In this document: in pieces, positions 33,341-42,878 of the stretch
How the letters are laid out: each line of letters starts with the position of its first letter
Numbering within the stretch: position 1 is the first letter of the stretch
Source: Polaribacter sp. L3A8
GTDB lineage: Bacteria; Bacteroidota; Bacteroidia; Flavobacteriales; Flavobacteriaceae
DNA length: 64,000 nt
Direction: 5' to 3'
Assembly (NCBI RefSeq): GCF_009796785.1
Contig: NZ_CP047026.1
Coordinates: 2,958,501-3,022,500 of the forward strand
Notes under the pieces: model-generated
Database searches by the model: none
What the model saw: only the letters and a program-made list of their open reading frames with translations
Told to the model about the DNA's origin: nothing
Program-made: the position numbers and the translations under genes

Positions 33341-34316
33341 TAATTTTTCAGAGGTCAGTATTTAAATTCATATCTTTAAAGTCAATAAATAGAGTATTAT
33401 TATGAATATATTTAAAGGACAAAATCTTCTAGAGTTTGCTGATCGGTTTAAAACGGATGAAGATTGCAAGAAATACTTGGCAGATATTAAATGGAAAGAT
33501 GGATTTCAATGTGTTAAATGTGGTCATAACAAGGCTCAAATAAGAAAAGATTTTTCACGTACATGTAATATTTGTTCTCATCAAGAATCATCTACCTCAA
33601 ACACACTTTTTCACAAGGTAAAGTTTGGTGTTAGAAAAGCTTTTTTTATTGTTTTTGAAATGAGTACAAGTACTAAAAGCCTTTCTGCTAGTTATGTTGC
33701 AGTTCGTTTTAGCGTAACAGAAAAGACAGCCCGTTTATTTATGCTCAAAATTAGAGAAGCAATGGAAAGTAGTGGAAATAGTCCTATGACTGGTATTGTT
33801 CATGTAGATGAATTTGTTTTGGGTGGACGAGAAAAAGACAAAGTAGGAAGAAGTTATAATGCTAAGAAAAAGAAAGCTATAACTGCTGTTGAACTAACTC
33901 AAGATGGAAAAGTTAAAAGAATGTATGCCATGAGAATCGAAGATTTTTCAGCTAGTTCTTTGCAATATATTTTTGTGAATCATATCAGTCGAAAAGCTAA
34001 AGTGATAACCGACAAATGGAGAGGTTACAGGCCTATTGCTAAAGTTTATAATATTACTCAAATAGAAAGTAATGGTGGTATGAATTTTAAAGCACTTCAT
34101 ACAATGATTCATCAAGTGAAATCTTGGATAAGAACAACGTATTCTTGGGTTAGTGACTTTAATCTAAATAGATATTTTAATGAATTTTGTTTTAGAATTA
34201 ATCGATCACAAAGTAAAGCAACAATATTCAATAACTTAATAACTAAAATGGTTGAAAAGGAGAAAGTAGAACATCACAAAATTATATGTAACTAACTACT
34301 GACCTCTATAATTTTT
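33341..34316. mobile_element. Complete IS1595-family insertion sequence with 8-bp target duplications
   Basis: The element is 33349-34308 (960 bp). The ends are inverted repeats (CAGAGGTCAGTA on the left, TAGAGGTCAGTA on the right when reversed, with further scattered matches). TAATTTTT is directly repeated at 33341-33348 and 34309-34316, an 8-bp duplication as known for IS1595. One intact transposase gene fills it. It lies between the pyk terminator and the CBS gene without breaking a gene. Confidence 0.92.
33402..34295 (+). CDS. IS1595-family (ISXO2-like) transposase
   Basis: A 297-aa transposase. The N-terminal zinc ribbon has Cys pairs in CVKCGHNKAQ and TCNICSH (residues about 38-65). 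The ISXO2-like DDE domain follows: HVDEFVLGGREKDKVGRS (first Asp), VITDKWRGY (second Asp) and the C-terminal FNEFCFRINR (Glu/Asn). It is intact and full length, so possibly active. Confidence 0.95.
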   Translation: MNIFKGQNLLEFADRFKTDEDCKKYLADIKWKDGFQCVKCGHNKAQIRKDFSRTCNICSHQESSTSNTLFHKVKFGVRKAFFIVFEMSTSTKSLSASYVAVRFSVTEKTARLFMLKIREAMESSGNSPMTGIVHVDEFVLGGREKDKVGRSYNAKKKKAITAVELTQDGKVKRMYAMRIEDFSASSLQYIFVNHISRKAKVITDKWRGYRPIAKVYNITQIESNGGMNFKALHTMIHQVKSWIRTTYSWVSDFNLNRYFNEFCFRINRSQSKATIFNNLITKMVEKEKVEHHKIICN

Positions 34317-36385: not shown

Positions 36386-36427
36386 AATGATATTCATCAG
36401 ACCTAAAACCAACTGATGAATATCATT
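36386..36427. terminator. Long hairpin between ssb and the PPOX gene, carrying two FNR-like boxes
   Basis: A perfect 15-bp inverted repeat (AATGATATTCATCAG and complement) with a 12-nt loop lies between two convergent genes. It may serve both as a bidirectional terminator, although the T-tract is weak. Each arm contains TGAT-N4-ATCA (36388-36399 and 36414-36425), and the left arm has exactly the box TGATATTCATCA found at 38944-38955. No -7 element at the expected spacing was found on either side. Confidence 0.6.
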
Positions 36428-36521: not shown

Positions 36522-36986
36522 TTAAGAATTATCACTTGTAATTTTTTTACCAGTAATCTCATCAATTATAATTTTAAACACAATTGGTGTGTTTTTTGTA
36601 TTTATTTTATGTGAAAAATCGCTAATGCAGTGTAAATTTTTGTGTTCTTTTTTGGAAATAAGTTCTTTAATTCCTGCAGAAAATTCATGTAAATGTTTTT
36701 TTGCACCAGAACCAGATAATTCTTCATAAATTCCATGTACCAAAATAGAATTACAAATATGATCATTCTTTTTTTCTGAAACTTGCAACGATACTTTTCT
36801 ATAATTTCTCATTGCCATTGTTTTATGTCCATCTTCAGAATAACCAACAATACTATTATTTTCCTTGTCAAAAAAATAAGTCATAGGTATTACAAAAGGT
36901 CTGTCTATATAAATATAACCTAGTTGACCTATATAGTTATTTGATAAAACTTGTACGCATTCATTATCGTTTAAATTGGTTACCAT
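36522..36986 (-). CDS. PPOX-type flavin-binding protein (nitroimidazole-resistance/pyridoxamine oxidase-like)
   Basis: A 154-aa split-barrel protein. The N-terminus (LNDNECVQVLSNNYIGQLGYI), IPMTYFFDKENNSIVGYSEDGHK and MRNYRKVSLQVSEK match the FMN-binding pyridoxamine-5'-phosphate-oxidase-like family that includes NimA. Members bind FMN or a related cofactor and are often expressed under low oxygen or nitrosative stress. It has its own promoter with a near-perfect FNR-type dyad 53-78 nt upstream, so it is the clearest predicted target of the local regulator. Confidence 0.82.
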   Translation of the reverse strand: MVTNLNDNECVQVLSNNYIGQLGYIYIDRPFVIPMTYFFDKENNSIVGYSEDGHKTMAMRNYRKVSLQVSEKKNDHICNSILVHGIYEELSGSGAKKHLHEFSAGIKELISKKEHKNLHCISDFSHKINTKNTPIVFKIIIDEITGKKITSDNS

Positions 36987-37014
36987 GATGCTAGTTTTTA
37001 AATAAGAGTAGCGT

Positions 37015-37065
37015 CTAAGGTATTTAAAATCAGTTAAATAAAAACTGATATATATCAGTTTTTAT
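37015..37065 (-). promoter_or_regulatory. FNR-like dyad and -7 element of the PPOX gene
   Basis: A perfect 28-nt palindrome (37038-37065) has the core ACTGATATATATCAGT, centred at 37051.5. On the minus strand a -7-like TACCTTAG starts at 37022, 29.5 nt from the centre. This spacing is identical to that of four other promoters in the block and is that of a class II activator site near -41.5. Confidence 0.8.
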
Positions 37066-37159
37066 AAATTTTATTTGTAGTGTAATTTAAATGAGTAATC
37101 ATTTTATTTGTAAACCCTAAAATTATGAAGGACTAATAATAAAAAATTAATTTAGTATT

Positions 37160-37456
37160 TTAATGCTTTTTATAAAACGAAAGCTTGTTTTGTAAATCTG
37201 TAATTTCTTTTTTTAAAGTACTTACTTGGTTTAATAAGTTGTAAATTACATCAACACCTTCTAAATTTATGTTTAAATCATAGTGTAAACGAATCATTTT
37301 TTCTACTTCTGTAATTTGAGTAATTTTTATATAATGATCATCGTTTTCTACAATAACTTCTATTAATTCATACTCTTTTAATTCATTTATAAAAGTTTTA
37401 GGAATGCTGTAGTGCTTACAAAATTGCTGTATAGATATTAAATTTTGAGTTTCCAT
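37160..37456 (-). CDS. cbpM: Chaperone modulator CbpM
   Basis: A 98-aa MerR-like helical protein that in E. coli binds the J-domain of CbpA and inhibits it. Features are ISIQQFCKHYSIPKTFINELKEYELIEV, MIRLHYDLNINLEGVDVIYNLL and a C-terminal coiled coil (TLKKEITDLQNKLSF). It starts 2 bp after the stop of cbpA, so the two form one operon. No DNA-binding activity is expected. Confidence 0.88.
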   Translation of the reverse strand: METQNLISIQQFCKHYSIPKTFINELKEYELIEVIVENDDHYIKITQITEVEKMIRLHYDLNINLEGVDVIYNLLNQVSTLKKEITDLQNKLSFYKKH

Positions 37457-37458
37457 AT

Positions 37459-38349
37459 TTAGCGTTGTTTTTGTAATTCTTTAATTAACTCTATTTCTTT
37501 TTTGTTTAACTTAGTAGGTATTTTAAGTTGATAGGTGATAAACAAATCTCCAAATTGATCTTCTTTTTTATATGCAGGAAATCCTTTTCCTTTTAGTTTT
37601 ACTTTGCTACCGTTTTCTGTTTCTGGTTTAATGGTTAGTTTTACTTTTCCATCAAAAGTATCTACCAATATTTGTCCGCCCAATAAAGCAGTGTACACAT
37701 CTAAATCAACATCAATATAAAGGTTGTCTTTGTCTCGTTTAAATTTTGTGTTGTTTGCAATAGAAAACTGAATATATAAATCGCCATTAGGACCATTATT
37801 TACACCTTTGCCACCATGCCCTTTTATTTTTATAACTTGTCCGTTTTCTACACCAGCAGGAATGGTAATTCTAATGTTTTTTCCATTAACAGTAATCACC
37901 TGTTTTTGGGTTTTATAAACATCTTTTAAATCTAGTTGAATTTCAGAATTGTAATCTTGCCCTCTATATTTAGCGCTTGTTCTTCTTCCAGAAGATGCAC
38001 CACCTCCAAAGATGTCTCCAAAAATATCAGAAAAATCTTCTTGTGAATAGCCACCTTTTTGACTATTTTGAGACCTTTTGTGCTGCTCTTGCTGTCTTTG
38101 TTTTTCTTGCTCGTAGGCTTCACTATTTTGCCAATGCTCTCCATATACATCGTATTTTTTACGATTTTCTGAATTGCTTAAAACTTCATTGGCTTCATTA
38201 ATTTCTTTAAATTTTTTTTCGGCAGTTTTATCATTCGGATTTAAATCTGGATGGTATTTTCGTGCTAATTTTCTGTAGGCTTTTTTAATATCAGCTTCAG
38301 AAGCACTTTTAGTAATTCCTAATATTTTGTAATAATCTACAAATGCCAT
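37459..38349 (-). CDS. cbpA: DnaJ-type co-chaperone CbpA
   Basis: A 296-aa Hsp40 homologue. The J-domain (residues 1-70) has [14 protein letters not shown] with the HPD motif needed to stimulate DnaK. A Gly/Phe-rich linker (about 100-130, [16 protein letters not shown]) follows. The two C-terminal substrate-binding domains come next ([23 protein letters not shown]) with no CxxCxGxG zinc finger, which separates it from DnaJ. It forms an operon with cbpM and has an FNR-like box at its promoter. Confidence 0.93.
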
Positions 38350-38381
38350 TTATATGTTTTTTTGTGCTTAGAGCGTAATAT

Positions 38382-38424
38382 TAAAAGTAGTACAACTAAA
38401 TTGTAGATAAAATGAGAATTATCA
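38382..38424 (-). promoter_or_regulatory. FNR-like box and -7 element of cbpA-cbpM
   Basis: On the minus strand, TGATAATTCTCA (plus 38413-38424, one mismatch to TGAT-N4-ATCA) is centred at 38418.5. It lies 29.5 nt before TACTTTTA at 38389-38382, which differs from TAnnTTTG in the last base. The cbpA ATG follows 33 nt later. Confidence 0.7.
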
Positions 38425-38474
38425 GTTTTCTAAACATTCATCATTTTAACTGTTTTTTCTGTAGAGATTAGAGG

Positions 38475-38888
38475 TTATGTTGTTTTTTCTAATGCTAAAT
38501 TCAGTTTTTTAACCAAGTTAAATTCAGATTGATCTATGTCATCTACAGAAGCCGCTATTTTGCTCGCAGTCTTACTTATTAGACTTTTAATACCTTCTGT
38601 AAATAGAGAAGGGTGTTCTTTTTTAAAATCAATAAACTCATTATAACAAGTTTTAGAGTTAGAAAAACCTTCGTTATTTAACCAATCAAAAACAGTTTCA
38701 ATTTGATAAGCAGCATCAGATTGAAATTCATCATCAACAGGATCAACTTTAGTCCATTTATTTTTTACGATTTCTTTTAAAACATGAAACTCAATTTCTT
38801 CTACAACATTATCTGCAGCAGCTATTGCGTAAAATAATTTACCGAGGTTTTCATAAAAAGAAATAATGGTGTTTTGTGAAGGTTTCAT
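38475..38888 (-). CDS. TerB-like helical protein
   Basis: A 137-aa all-helical protein from the ATG at 38888. FYENLGKLFYAIAAADNVVEEIEFHVLKEIV resembles the tellurite-resistance TerB domain, with its acidic residues after the AAADN turn. The open frame extends to 38966, but the extra 26 residues are hydrophobic and low-complexity. They would also overlap the promoter box at 38913-38955, so the shorter start is chosen. It is divergent from the histidine kinase gene. The function is unknown; it is a predicted member of the FNR-like regulon. Confidence 0.65.
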   Translation of the reverse strand: MKPSQNTIISFYENLGKLFYAIAAADNVVEEIEFHVLKEIVKNKWTKVDPVDDEFQSDAAYQIETVFDWLNNEGFSNSKTCYNEFIDFKKEHPSLFTEGIKSLISKTASKIAASVDDIDQSEFNLVKKLNLALEKTT

Positions 38889-38912
38889 AATTAAATTAAT
38901 TATGAATGTTAG

Positions 38913-38955
38913 TAAAATTAAAATAATATGAGGAGCTATTCTATGATATTCATCA
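38913..38955 (-). promoter_or_regulatory. FNR-like box and -7 element of the TerB-like gene
   Basis: TGATATTCATCA (38944-38955), a perfect TGAT-N4-ATCA site centred at 38949.5. On the minus strand TAATTTTA (38920-38913) starts 29.5 nt away, and the ATG at 38888 follows 24 nt later. No matching -7 element was found toward the divergent kinase gene. Confidence 0.75.
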
Positions 38956-39024
38956 TTATTAACCATATTTTTACATAAAATAGCGAACTTTAGATTTTCT
39001 TTAACTTAAAATCCATCATAAAAA

Positions 39025-40266
39025 ATGCTGAATAAAGAACAAGATATTTTTAATGTACTTTTTGAAGCAGTCTCTGAGGGCGTTGTAGTTGTTAACGACC
39101 AACAAAAAATAGTTTCTGTAAACACTTCTGTAGAAAAAATGTTTGGTTACAACCACGGAGAGCTTGTAAATCAATCACTTAATGTCTTAATTCCTAAAAA
39201 CTATCATGCTGGTCATGGAGCCCATTTTAAAGGCTTTATGAAACAAAAAGAAAAAAGGCAGATGGGCAATGGAAGAGATTTGCATGGGGCTAGAAAAAAT
39301 GGAGATATTTTTCCGTTAGAAGCAGGTTTAAATCCGTTTAAAATTTATGGAGAAACTTTTGTAATGGCTTTGGTTATTGATATTTCTGCTAGAAAAGAAC
39401 AAGAACAAGAAATTATTAAATTAAATGAAGAGCTAGAGAAAAAGGTTAATGAAAGAACAAAAGAGTTAAGTAAAACGGTTAATGAATTAAAGGTTGTTAA
39501 TATTGAGTTAGATGCAGAAAACCATAAAAGGATAGAAGCAGAAAATAAAATTAAAGATGCTTTAAAAAAAGAAAAAGAACTAAATGAATTAAAGACAAAA
39601 TTCTTGTCGTTAGTGTCTCATGAGTTTAAAACCCCTTTAAGTGGTATTTTAACATCTACCATGTTATTAGGCAAATATAAATTGGCAGAACAACAAGAAA
39701 AAAGAGACAAGCATTTAGAAACAATTACAAATAAAGTTCATTATTTAAATAATATTTTAAATGATTTTTTATCCGTAGAAAAATTAGAGACAGGTAAAAT
39801 AAATTACAAATTTCATACCTTTAAACTAAGTAAGGTTGTAGATGAGGTAATTTACAATGCCAACATGCTTTTAAAGGAAGGGCAAAGAATTAATTACCCA
39901 GAAGATATTGATGAAATTTCTTTAACTCAAGATGAAAAAACTGTAGAACTTGCATTATCTAATTTAGTAAACAATGCTATTAAATATTCGCCAGAAAAGA
40001 CAGAAATAAGCATTAATATAACGCAAGATAAAAAAGAGACTACTATTAAAATTAAAGATAACGGAATTGGGATTCCGAAGGCAGATCAGAAAAATATTTT
40101 TAACCGTTATTTTAGAGCAGAAAATGCGTTATTAACACAAGGAACAGGAATTGGTTTAAATATTATTAAAAGCCATTTAGAAAATTTAGGAGGAACGATT
40201 ACTTTTGAAAGTAAAGAAAATGTCGGTTCTACTTTTACAATGAAGATTATTAACAAAGCAATATGA
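39025..40266 (+). CDS. Soluble PAS-domain sensor histidine kinase
   Basis: A 413-aa kinase with no membrane helices. It has a PAS domain at residues about 5-125 (VVVVNDQQKIVSVNTSVEKMFGY, with IPKNYHAGHGAHFKGFM), a coiled coil (130-190), and a HisKA H-box FLSLVSHEFKTPLSGIL with the phospho-His at about 199. The ATP-binding N, G1 and G2 boxes are ALSNLVNNAIKYSPE, KDNGIGIPKAD and GTGIGLNI. A cytosolic PAS suggests sensing of redox state, oxygen, NO or another internal signal; a bound haem or flavin is possible but unproven. It overlaps the response regulator gene by 4 bp. Confidence 0.93.
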   Translation: MLNKEQDIFNVLFEAVSEGVVVVNDQQKIVSVNTSVEKMFGYNHGELVNQSLNVLIPKNYHAGHGAHFKGFMKQKEKRQMGNGRDLHGARKNGDIFPLEAGLNPFKIYGETFVMALVIDISARKEQEQEIIKLNEELEKKVNERTKELSKTVNELKVVNIELDAENHKRIEAENKIKDALKKEKELNELKTKFLSLVSHEFKTPLSGILTSTMLLGKYKLAEQQEKRDKHLETITNKVHYLNNILNDFLSVEKLETGKINYKFHTFKLSKVVDEVIYNANMLLKEGQRINYPEDIDEISLTQDEKTVELALSNLVNNAIKYSPEKTEISINITQDKKETTIKIKDNGIGIPKADQKNIFNRYFRAENALLTQGTGIGLNIIKSHLENLGGTITFESKENVGSTFTMKIINKAI

Positions 40267-41321
40267 AAAAAATACTATTAATTGAAGACGATGTAGTTTT
40301 AAGAGAAAACACGTCAGAACTTTTAGAACTATCTAACTACGAGGTTGTAAATGCTGCAAATGGAAAAATAGGAGTACAAGTAGCAAAAGAAACTTTACCA
40401 GATATTATTGTTTGTGATATTATGATGCCAGAACTAGATGGTTATGGCGTGTTAGAAGCTTTAACTAAAAACGAAAGCACACAACACATCCCTTTTATAT
40501 TTTTATCTGCAAAAACAGAAAGAAAAGATGTTAGAAAAGGAATGGATTTAGGTGCAGATGATTATATAACAAAACCTTTTAGTGAAGATGAGTTGATTAG
40601 TGCTATAGAAAGTAGACTAGCAAAAGCTTCTATATTAAAAGATATTAGAGAAAACAAAGTAGTAAAAACAGAAAGCACAGAAGAAACGGAAGAAATTAGA
40701 AGTCTTAATGATTTAAAAAATTATTTTGAAGACAATGGAGAGTCTTTTCTTTTTGCTAAAGAAGCAACCGTCTATAAAGAAGGTAATAACTCTAATTTTA
40801 TTTATTTAATAAATAAAGGGTTAGTAAAGTGCCATAAATTAGATGAACAAGGAAAACAACTTACCACTGCTTTGTATAAAGAAGATGATTTGTTTGGCTA
40901 TACTTCTTTTTCTCAAAATTTAGCGTATCAAGAATCTGCAACAGCAATTAAAAAAACAGAATTGGTAGGTCTTTCTAAAAAAGCATTAACCAATGTTTTA
41001 AACAAAAACCATAAAGTAACTTTAGAGTTAATAGAATTACTAACAGAAGATTTAGCTGTAGTAAAGGACCAACTTTTACAAATGGCCTATAGTTCTGTAA
41101 GTAAAAAAACGGCAAAGACTATTTTAATGTTTGCAGAAAAATTAAATAGAAAGCCAGAAGATCAAATAAAAATTTCTAGAAACGATTTAGCAAGTGTTGC
41201 TGGTATTGCAACAGAAACGTTAATTAGAACAATGTCTAGTTTTAAAAAACAAGGACTTATAGAAATAGAGGGTAGAACTATTAGAATTCTAGACTTAGAA
41301 AGGTTAAAAGAAATCTGTTAA
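40263..41321 (+). CDS. Response regulator with REC, cNMP-binding-like and CRP/FNR-type DNA-binding domains
   Basis: A 352-aa fusion. The receiver domain is residues 1-120, with phospho-acceptor Asp52 in IIVCDIMMPELDG, the acidic pair EDD, and Lys in ITKPFSEDEL. A linker (about 125-150) leads to a cyclic-nucleotide-binding-like beta barrel (about 155-255; AKEATVYKEGNNSNFIYLI, DLFGYTSF). The C-terminal CRP winged helix (about 270-345) has RNDLASVAGIATETLIRTMS. Its recognition helix has Glu and Arg at the positions of E. coli FNR Glu209 and Arg213, with Ile replacing Ser212. No FNR-type Cys cluster is present. It is the likely regulator of the five dyad-bearing promoters around it. Confidence 0.92.
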   Translation: MKKILLIEDDVVLRENTSELLELSNYEVVNAANGKIGVQVAKETLPDIIVCDIMMPELDGYGVLEALTKNESTQHIPFIFLSAKTERKDVRKGMDLGADDYITKPFSEDELISAIESRLAKASILKDIRENKVVKTESTEETEEIRSLNDLKNYFEDNGESFLFAKEATVYKEGNNSNFIYLINKGLVKCHKLDEQGKQLTTALYKEDDLFGYTSFSQNLAYQESATAIKKTELVGLSKKALTNVLNKNHKVTLELIELLTEDLAVVKDQLLQMAYSSVSKKTAKTILMFAEKLNRKPEDQIKISRNDLASVAGIATETLIRTMSSFKKQGLIEIEGRTIRILDLERLKEIC

Positions 41322-41345
41322 TTACCTACTAAGTAAAGGTAGATA

Positions 41346-41388
41346 TGACCAATATCATTTTTTAAAAAGCATTGTAGCAATAAATTTG
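41346..41388 (+). promoter_or_regulatory. FNR-like box and -7 element of uspA
   Basis: TGACCAATATCA (41346-41357; one mismatch to TGAT-N4-ATCA), centred at 41351.5. A perfect -7 TAAATTTG starts at 41381, 29.5 nt away. The ATG is at 41412. Confidence 0.75.
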
Positions 41389-41411
41389 TCTAATATTAAA
41401 GACGAATTACA

Positions 41412-42251
41412 ATGAAAAATATTTTACTACCCACAGATTTTTCTGATAATTCTTGGAACGCTATAGAGTACGCTTTAAATTTTTATAAAGACTCCAAGTG
41501 TAATTTTTATTTATTGCATATTAATAGATTAAGCAACGTTGCAACAGAAGGCTATTGTTACGGTCAAACACAAGAACTTCTTGTGGATATTAACGTAGAA
41601 AATGCAAAGAAAAAGCTAAAAATAGTACAACAAAAAATAGCACAAAATTTTAATAATAGCAAACATAAATTTTACACTTTAACAGATACTAACTTTTTTA
41701 TTGAATCGATAAGACAACACATCGAAGAAAAAAAAGTAGATGTAATTGTTATGGGTACAAAAGGAGCTAGTGGTTTTGCTGGTTTTATTACAGGTAGCAA
41801 TACCGGAGATGTTATTACAAAAGTAAAGTGTACAACTCTGGTGGTGCCAGAGAATGCTAAATTTGGCAAAATCGAAGAGATTGCATTTCCTACTGATTTT
41901 TCATTATCTACCGATTTGCAATTATTACAACCGATCATAGATATTTTAGAAGAAAAAAAAGCATCTTTAAGAGTTTTAAATATCAGTAAAAAAGTAACAG
42001 TATTAAATACAGACCAACAAAAAAGTAAAGAATTAGTAGAAGATTATTTTTATAATTATAGCCATAGTTTTCATTTTTTAACCAATAAAAAAGTAGAAGA
42101 TGCAGTGCAGTGTTTTGTAAATAGTAGAAATATAGACATGATTGTTATGGTTGCAAAAAACCTTAATTATTTTCAACAAATACTATTTCATACCAAGGTG
42201 GCAGAAATAAGTTATCATACAGACGTTCCTTTTTTAGTGCTTCATGAATAA
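41412..42251 (+). CDS. Universal stress protein, tandem UspA domains
   Basis: A 279-aa protein with two Usp folds. The first half is clear: ILLPTDFSDNSWNAIEYAL, VIVMGTKGASGFAGFITGSNTGDVI, CTTLVVPE. It includes the nucleotide-binding G-x2-G-x9-G-S/T motif, so ATP binding is likely. The second half (residues about 145-279; EEIAFPTDFSLSTDLQLL, IDMIVMVAKNL) is more degenerate and lacks that motif. It follows the response regulator gene but has its own dyad-bearing promoter. Confidence 0.9.
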   Translation: MKNILLPTDFSDNSWNAIEYALNFYKDSKCNFYLLHINRLSNVATEGYCYGQTQELLVDINVENAKKKLKIVQQKIAQNFNNSKHKFYTLTDTNFFIESIRQHIEEKKVDVIVMGTKGASGFAGFITGSNTGDVITKVKCTTLVVPENAKFGKIEEIAFPTDFSLSTDLQLLQPIIDILEEKKASLRVLNISKKVTVLNTDQQKSKELVEDYFYNYSHSFHFLTNKKVEDAVQCFVNSRNIDMIVMVAKNLNYFQQILFHTKVAEISYHTDVPFLVLHE

Positions 42252-42337
42252 GAATAATATTATAGATTAAGTATTTAAGTTCAATTATCTACATAACTAA
42301 AAATAGTAGTAACAAAGCAATTTCTAAACTTATTTTA

Positions 42338-42386
42338 AGATACTGATATATATCAGTATCTATTTTTTTCTTTAAATGTAATTTAG
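42338..42386 (+). promoter_or_regulatory. FNR-like dyad and -7 element of the 149-aa gene
   Basis: A perfect 24-nt palindrome (42338-42361) has the core ACTGATATATATCAGT, identical to the PPOX site and centred at 42349.5. TAATTTAG starts at 42379, 29.5 nt away. The ATG is at 42429. Confidence 0.8.
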
Positions 42387-42428
42387 TACAACAACTTTTT
42401 TTAACCTGAATTTAATAATATTACTATT

Positions 42429-42878
42429 ATGAAAATTACACCAGTAAATACACGTTTTATAAAATGGTTAAGTGCAGAAGAAATGCATAATGATTCTAAA
42501 GAATGGCTTATAGATTTAGAATTTTTAAATGATGAGTATCTTTTTTTTGAAGATTTAATAAAGTGGAATACACTTCAGTTAATAGATTTTCAGTCTTATT
42601 CTAAAAGTAAAGAATTTATCGAAATTTTAAGTAACTCTAAAAAAACCAATGACAAGTTAATTGAGTTGGTTAAAAAGCATAAAAAAGGTCTTGAAGTTTT
42701 AGTAGACGTAAAAGATGAACCTAAAAAAGAGGAAGCTTATAAAACAGAACACAAAACAGTTCTTGTTCTGTTTAAAAATCATTTAAAAGAGCACAGAGCT
42801 CTAAAATTAAATTTATTTGAGATTTTAAAAAAAATTAAAAAAACAGAAAAAGGAAAACGAATAATAGATGTAGAATAA
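42429..42878 (+). CDS. Small helical protein of unknown function
   Basis: A 149-aa, Lys/Glu-rich protein, predicted almost entirely alpha-helical (residues about 20-60 and 100-145), with no signal peptide, Cys cluster or recognised motif. A charged hinge (DVKDEPKKEEAYKTEHK) divides two helical bundles. I do not recognise the family. Its promoter carries the best FNR-like palindrome of the window, so it is predicted to be induced together with the PPOX, CbpA and Usp genes. A strong terminator follows. Confidence 0.75.
   Translation: MKITPVNTRFIKWLSAEEMHNDSKEWLIDLEFLNDEYLFFEDLIKWNTLQLIDFQSYSKSKEFIEILSNSKKTNDKLIELVKKHKKGLEVLVDVKDEPKKEEAYKTEHKTVLVLFKNHLKEHRALKLNLFEILKKIKKTEKGKRIIDVE

Follow-up and report, generated by a model that had tools for sequence, protein, structure and literature searches.

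At class II promoters of the FNR/Anr type, an activator with an E..xR recognition helix occupies a TGAT-N4-ATCA-type dyad centred at -41.5, with TTGAT as the half-site. DosR/DevR, a regulator with a LuxR-type output and GAF kinases, acts on universal stress proteins and small heat-shock proteins. DosR/DevR of mycobacteria and OsdR of Streptomyces are response regulators that answer hypoxia in a dormancy programme (PMC5069765). FixJ is described in passages of PMC5234846 as a receiver with a LuxR-type output; these passages and others in PMC6127331 also describe a low-oxygen-activated (lxa) locus of Burkholderia that holds six universal stress proteins and a heat-shock protein. The PMC6127331 passages propose a FixK homologue as the oxygen-sensing regulator and do not show FixK driving lxa. 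In Myxococcus xanthus, NmpRSTU is a multi-component kinase system over an oxygen-utilisation regulon (PMC11841059). Here we examine a gene island in a 64,000-nucleotide (nt) stretch of the Polaribacter sp. L3A8 genome (contig NZ_CP047026.1; hereafter the window), in which a PAS histidine kinase and a REC-CRP response regulator (a receiver fused to a CRP/FNR module) are surrounded by five promoters with TGAT-N4-ATCA-type boxes at one fixed distance from the -7 element.

Flavobacteria are abundant marine degraders of organic matter, and to our knowledge little is known of their gene regulation. The original prediction for this island was that the REC-CRP protein activates all five promoters as a local stress or low-oxygen regulon. 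By comparing the island with related loci and with congeneric genomes that lack the regulator, we arrive at a class II regulon of REC-CRP, acting alone or with FNR, as the best and a likely reading of the island promoters. No report of this REC-CRP or its boxes was found among the matches listed in the open-licence PMC literature.

Five phased promoters in the island

The phased boxes are a real and strong observation: a re-scan recovered all five boxes and -7 elements where they had first been noticed, each aimed at its named gene. On the minus strand, the promoter of the pyridoxamine-phosphate-oxidase-like (PPOX) gene has the box ACTGATATATATCAGT (37044..37059, an exact TGAT-N4-ATCA) and the -7 element TACCTTAG (37015..37022; predicted start about 37010); the cbpA-cbpM promoter has ACTGATAATTCTCATT (38411..38426, 7 of 8 positions) and TACTTTTA (38382..38389; start about 38377); and the TerB-like promoter, in the intergenic region shared with the kinase operon, which is a divergent region in relatives, has AATGATGAATATCATA (38942..38957, exact) and TAATTTTA (38913..38920; start about 38908). 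On the plus strand, the uspA promoter has TATGACCAATATCATT (41344..41359, 7 of 8 positions) and TAAATTTG (41381..41388; start about 41393), and the promoter of a gene for a 149-amino-acid (aa) protein has a box with the same letters as that of PPOX (42342..42357, exact) and the -7 element TAATTTAG (42379..42386; start about 42391). The box is thus exact in three of the five, and the distance from its centre to the first T of the -7 element is 29.5 nt in all five.

When a box of at least 7/8 positions was paired with TAnnTT at 29.5 nt, the whole window held only the five island sites, and each of the other offsets from 20.5 to 44.5 gave 0-4 pairs. Dinucleotide shuffling of the window (300 runs) yielded 1.32 phased pairs on average and five or more in 0.7% of runs, with a maximum of three inside 6 kb, so that five such boxes within 6 kb are, as had been claimed, beyond chance. 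Exact TGAT-N4-ATCA occurs nine times in the window when context is ignored. Two of these nine lie in a stem-loop-like inverted repeat seen by eye between ssb and PPOX (gatattcatca / tgatgaatatc, 36388-36425), perhaps a terminator.

The phasing across relatives of the regulator locus

Apart from the regulator's own genome, 7 of 35 congeneric genomes encode a full-length relative with at least 70% identity. In these seven loci (18 kb each) 47 pairs have the 29.5-nt offset, and the counts for 34 other offsets range from 0 to 12. Searching named genomes with an alignment of eight regulators extended the comparison to the best 80 of 571 relatives. These 80 loci contain 424 pairs at 29.5 nt vs 37.9 +/- 8.1 at 50 other offsets, an 11-fold excess seen at that one offset only; with perfect boxes the counts are 229 vs 8.5 elsewhere (maximum 22). 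In 22 control loci with weaker regulator matches (L021-L042), two pairs were found at 29.5 nt vs 1.6, and for perfect boxes two vs 0.2 (maximum 3). Box and spacing are therefore kept among relatives, as predicted.

They are also linked to the REC-CRP gene. Every one of the best 80 loci has at least one phased pair (median five; just one in seven loci), with a chance expectation of about 0.5 per locus, and pair density (per 10 kb) is 4.35 at up to 2 kb from the regulator and drops to about 1.9 at distances above 4 kb; these densities are 9 to 14 times those at other offsets. By hand count the loci bear 32 genus names, which we take to be genera of Flavobacteriaceae; the remaining titles are metagenome-assembled genomes called Flavobacteriaceae, Flavobacteriales or Bacteroidia. 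Two of the named loci, L048 and L065, come from one genome, and both are counted in the tallies of targets, kinase adjacency, kinase histidines, intergenic regions and homologue boxes given below. Two congeners, G029 and G016, have a second regulator locus (L050 and L051; 44% and 42% identity, respectively) with phased boxes of its own; in G029 one of these boxes precedes a PAS kinase (L253), 212 nt from its start.

Promoter architecture

The 469 distinct promoters yield the consensus a(C/A)TGA(T/C)nnwT(A/G)TCATT, a 21-nt spacer and TAnnTTT(A/G); the search pattern itself fixed the TA, the TT and most positions of the box. In the spacer, T is weakly preferred over the first four positions and no later position exceeds 0.08 bits; being nearly free of information, the spacer indicates that box and -7 element are conserved while the remainder drifts. 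No -33 element is visible in this flat spacer, as would be expected of activator-dependent class II promoters. The -7 box of Flavobacterium psychrophilum is placed at -12 to -5 in passages of PMC9723704, the position also used for the predicted starts above. Combined with the offset of 29.5 nt in all five promoters, this position, taken from another species, puts the box centre at a predicted -41.5, and a class II activator-site geometry is supported for the island promoters, as judged from their sequence.

On the kinase side of the intergenic region between the TerB-like and kinase genes, 20 cases have a -7 element 30.5 or 31.5 nt from the box, a spacing longer by one or two bases than the usual one; the TerB-like gene itself contains some of these boxes.

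The kinase and the regulator

The kinase gene (39025..40266, plus strand) encodes a PAS-HisKA-HATPase protein (Pfam PAS_9, HisKA and HATPase_c) and adjoins the regulator gene in 85 of 88 loci; no membrane segment was seen in the kinase by eye (no prediction program was run). Its PAS region matches 16 PDB sequences at E of at most 0.001, 13 of which derive from a small number of FixL and DosP/YddU proteins, as constructs or variants. The position of the FixL proximal histidine is a histidine in 82 of 85 kinases, and a conserved arginine further on is found in 69 of 85, although many non-haem PAS domains may share a histidine at the proximal position. The distal pocket may speak against the likeness: the SmFixL residues Ile209, Ile210, Leu230 and Val232 (given in passages of PMC10765370) align with Gln, Met, Ala and Leu in the window kinase, so that none of the four is identical; Met and Leu are conservative replacements, Gln and Ala are not. 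DosP, itself a haem sensor, departs from SmFixL too, with Val, Glu, Phe and Leu at these positions in the alignment. By its matches the PAS domain is FixL-like; haem binding is putative, and so the kinase is not classed as a FixL.

The regulator gene (40263..41321, plus strand) encodes a receiver, a cNMP-binding fold and a Crp-type helix-turn-helix (Pfam Response_reg, cNMP_binding and HTH_Crp_2). The Response_reg match has an E-value of 1.8e-28, and the residues characteristic of a response-regulator receiver (D9, D10, D52, S82 and K104) are invariant across the eight congeneric orthologues, as are the recognition-helix residues E318 TLIR. With cNMP_binding and HTH_Crp_2 both above cut-off, the output belongs to the CRP/FNR superfamily, and the PDB matches are mostly CRP/FNR proteins.

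More specific identities were considered and rejected. The protein is not classed as an oxygen-sensing Fe-S FNR, as it lacks the defining N-terminal cysteine cluster in conserved form and C51, in the receiver, is the sole invariant cysteine of the eight orthologues. Nor is it classed as a cAMP-responsive CRP: the contact residues of E. coli CRP include Glu72 and Arg82, and in the alignment with 4cyd the contact stretch FGE...RTSSA faces FGY...YQESA. FixJ is likewise rejected, as the output is CRP-type instead of LuxR-type; for FNR and FixJ the decision rests on one defining feature of each. Since the receiver residues are kept while the cysteine cluster and the cAMP stretch are absent, phosphorylation is the simplest input.

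Genes downstream of the boxes

Besides the kinase and regulator, the island comprises, on the minus strand, the PPOX gene (36522..36986; Pfam Pyridox_ox_2), a gene for a CbpM-like MerR_2 protein (37160..37456; Pfam MerR_2) adjoining that for a CbpA-type DnaJ co-chaperone (37459..38349; Pfam DnaJ and DnaJ_C), and the TerB-like gene (38475..38888), which encodes a helical protein of 137 aa from the ATG at 38888. The label TerB does not hold for this product, which did not match the TerB sequence profile. On the plus strand follow uspA, a universal stress protein gene (41412..42251; Pfam Usp), and the gene of the 149-aa protein (42429..42878). The latter has no Pfam family, and its L056 homologue has neither a Pfam nor an NCBIfam family; its structural model consists of three long helices (predicted local distance difference test, pLDDT, 83.2). 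An IS1595-type transposase gene (33402-34295, plus strand) lies a few kb from the island.

We surveyed the targets in the window, the seven congeneric loci and the best 80 named loci, where 477 pairs led to 436 downstream frames; these were clustered by single linkage, and each cluster was named from one or two scanned members. Universal stress proteins form the largest cluster (180 in 84 loci), followed by TerB-like proteins (48 in 47 loci) and the 149-aa family (18 in 16 loci). Further clusters are WG-repeat (14), Hsp20 (14) and S30AE ribosome-hibernation-type proteins (13), a DUF3298-like family slightly below the Pfam cut-off (13), PPOX (10), an 88-aa family (10), DnaJ (9), FixS/CcoS (9), thioredoxin (7) and MlaE (6). 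Among individual genes, ccoS is a phased target in nine loci and hemN in two, and the kinase accounts for four frames. The predicted stress-gene regulon is upheld by this list, in which universal stress proteins predominate and TerB-like, Hsp20, ribosome-hibernation-type and CbpA proteins follow.

Taking the best homologue per locus, the phased box precedes 74 of 85 uspA genes (171 of 310 homologous frames in all), 47 of 59 TerB-like genes and 9 of 13 PPOX genes; the CbpM-like gene has a phased box of its own in 0 of 26 homologues. Other frames of at least 120 aa, some of them targets from different families, have one in 128 of 1168 cases; the neighbours beyond the cluster (ssb, GNAT, pyk and two xanthine-dehydrogenase-like genes) have only one or two homologues in the loci and so provide no real control. 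The regulator is present in 8 of 59 genomes, and the TerB-like gene is found in precisely these eight (a further match, at E 3.5e-4, is not counted; set A2 of the TerB-like sequences left out 6 of 43).

Which regulator uses the boxes

The Polaribacter sp. L3A8 genome has five Crp-type helix-turn-helix matches, one of which, encoded about 5 kb from ccoS, is a one-component FNR-type protein (L175) with an N-terminal CxxC and a recognition helix very similar to that of REC-CRP. The region of this regulator and ccoS is G000:C1:1416052-1424000 (L004, L132, L175). A scan of the whole genome, as suggested in the original prediction, found 12 exact TGAT-N4-ATCA-N23-TAnnTT sites (three in the cluster) vs four reversed, and 13 sites of the refined pattern TGAY-N4-RTCAT-N22-TAnnTTTR vs none reversed. 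The combination of box and spacing is therefore not restricted to the cluster: only two of the 13 refined sites, at the TerB-like gene and uspA, lie there, and others include ccoS and, by eye, nirK-like and pta genes. In G029, which has REC-CRP, 31 of 36 sites lie outside the main island, with pta, ccoS, pyruvate-oxidoreductase, BON-domain and YaaH-type transporter genes among those downstream. The regulon is probably not only local: genomes with REC-CRP have 8-37 refined sites and congeners without it 0-11, in overlapping ranges.

The refined pattern also occurs in most congeners without REC-CRP, at 0-11 sites per genome. Control sites were taken from six of these 28 congeners (46 of 47 sites, one in G013 being left out), and their 40 downstream frames, 39 of which were covered by Pfam scans, include six ccoS, four nirK-like copper proteins, two OmpW, one PEPCK, one universal stress protein and, by eye, three truncated-haemoglobin-like proteins. 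Phased sites at such genes where REC-CRP is absent point to a general FNR-type regulon of the same architecture; in these congeners the architecture is most likely used by a one-component FNR-type protein. Boxes of this genus-wide regulon (ccoS, nirK-like, pta, PEPCK) are of the TATGAYN4RTCATA type, in the same phase. Box and spacing alone therefore do not name the activator.

The boxes also differ in their flanks. Island sites (366) have C at flank position -7 in 209 cases and T at +8 in 179; among the 46 control sites, where the regulator is absent, the numbers are 8 and 6 (nine ccoS sites of 375 and locus L048 were left out). Part of this difference may be phylogenetic, because many genera contributed island sites, whereas all control sites belong to six genomes of a single genus; within the genus itself the ratio of C to A at -7 is 47 to 87 with the regulator and 23 to 89 without it, by hand sum a modest shift. 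Different island flanks favour REC-CRP as the activator.

Site counts favour REC-CRP as well: the eight genomes with REC-CRP have 8, 10, 13, 13, 14, 22, 36 and 37 refined sites (mean 19.1) and the 21 congeners without it that are at least 90% complete have a mean of 5.8 (seven less complete ones being left out), but the ranges overlap (8-37 vs 0-11), the counts are uncorrected for genome size, and the sites and genomes compared share ancestry, which makes the p values of the count and flank comparisons too small. Several observations weigh against a REC-CRP regulon or narrow it. The reversed refined pattern also matches eight times, in 5 of 59 genomes, and with a looser box (6/8 positions) the offset of 29.5 nt stands out little in the window (9 vs 2-8 pairs). 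Few kinase genes (3 of 85) or regulator genes (2 of 87) have the 29.5-nt phased box, and it is kept in a minority of the best homologues per locus of cbpA (9 of 26) and the 149-aa gene (6 of 28), so that conservation in orthologous promoters is uneven, being good for uspA, the TerB-like gene and PPOX and poor for these two. Universal stress proteins are just 2 of the 27 scanned proteins (from 28 frames, one short frame being left out) downstream of G029 sites outside the island. The helix TATESAIRLL of L175 resembles ATETLIRTM of REC-CRP, and L175 could bind the same boxes. Finally, ccoS boxes of several Aquimarina loci resemble island boxes, so the two site classes overlap.

It is accordingly quite possible that both proteins use the boxes, FNR bringing a low-oxygen input and REC-CRP a kinase signal (energy, redox or stress) to shared promoters; the overlapping site preferences and the island-like ccoS boxes of Aquimarina agree with this, while the different flanks suggest that the two are separate at least in part. 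As this is a form of the best explanation, the weights of the two overlap. That the boxes serve the one-component FNR-type regulator alone, with REC-CRP controlling something else, is unlikely: L175 has the CxxC and a similar helix, and the same architecture precedes ccoS, nirK-like and other genes where REC-CRP is missing, but those congeners have 0-11 sites, a single universal stress protein appears among the 40 control frames of six genomes, the island flanks differ, and each of the best 80 REC-CRP loci has phased boxes, denser near the regulator. Chance, or the composition of AT-rich DNA, can practically be dismissed, for although single TGAT-N4-ATCA matches are common, as the nine in the window illustrate, no shuffle reached five in 6 kb, the 11-fold excess is confined to one offset, and none of the reversed refined patterns matched in the genome that has 13 forward. 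The greater number of sites where REC-CRP is present, the co-occurrence of the TerB-like gene and the different flanks together tie the island to REC-CRP. Of the original claim that REC-CRP activates all five promoters as a local regulon, geometry, linkage and conserved phasing thus are supported, whereas the box leaves the activator unnamed and the regulon is probably not only local.

Discussion

Boxes, phasing, linkage, domain make-up and target families are read directly from the sequence, and they suggest a two-component stress regulon. The histidine kinase, through its FixL-like PAS domain, would phosphorylate the REC-CRP receiver; phosphorylated REC-CRP would bind boxes of the type aCTGATnnwTATCATT centred at -41.5; and, once bound, it would activate, in class II fashion, sigma-A promoters with a TAnnTTT(G/A) -7 element and no visible -33 element. 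The targets would be universal stress proteins first, then TerB-like, Hsp20, ribosome-hibernation-type, CbpA and PPOX proteins and, in some genomes, ccoS and hemN, and this regulon would coexist with a general FNR regulon that has the same promoter architecture. The signal would most likely be low oxygen or a blocked respiratory chain. Low oxygen is plausible for three reasons: the kinase has a FixL-like PAS domain, ccoS and hemN are among the targets, and the island resembles the lxa locus and FixLJ-FixK. Oxygen may be the signal, an assignment that we make tentatively.

Since regulator, promoter grammar and target families can be read from loci of 32 genus names, the circuit is directly testable. 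A layout recurring in so many flavobacteria points to a switch for survival of stress or low oxygen, and the island would give flavobacteria a likely stress or low-oxygen regulon comparable to those of DosR and the Burkholderia lxa locus. With the site definition, targets can be predicted; also tied to the regulon are two protein families of unknown function.

Compared with the described systems, the island shares with the lxa locus, as far as the passages on it go, the character of a stress-protein island. DosR/DevR belongs to another phylum and differs from REC-CRP in its DNA site and its LuxR-type output, and the NmpRSTU regulator is NtrC-like, with no CRP/FNR output as here. From FNR/Anr, REC-CRP is distinguished by its receiver input, the lack of a conserved N-terminal cysteine cluster, and half-sites of aCTGAT/AATGAT instead of TTGAT. 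The closest parallel is FixL-FixJ-FixK, which like the island has a PAS kinase at the top and a CRP/FNR-type activator at the bottom; there, the LuxR-type FixJ turns on the fixK gene, whereas here receiver and CRP/FNR module are one protein, and one transcriptional tier fewer is therefore needed. By analogy, the island may work like that chain with FixJ and FixK fused, haem binding by the kinase being putative. We tentatively propose that flavobacteria conserve a survival regulon whose regulator, one phospho-activated CRP/FNR protein under a FixL-like PAS kinase, might combine the tiers of FixJ and FixK; this regulon would run beside the classical FNR regulon, partly share its promoters and induce universal stress proteins, ribosome hibernation and new helical families when respiration stops.

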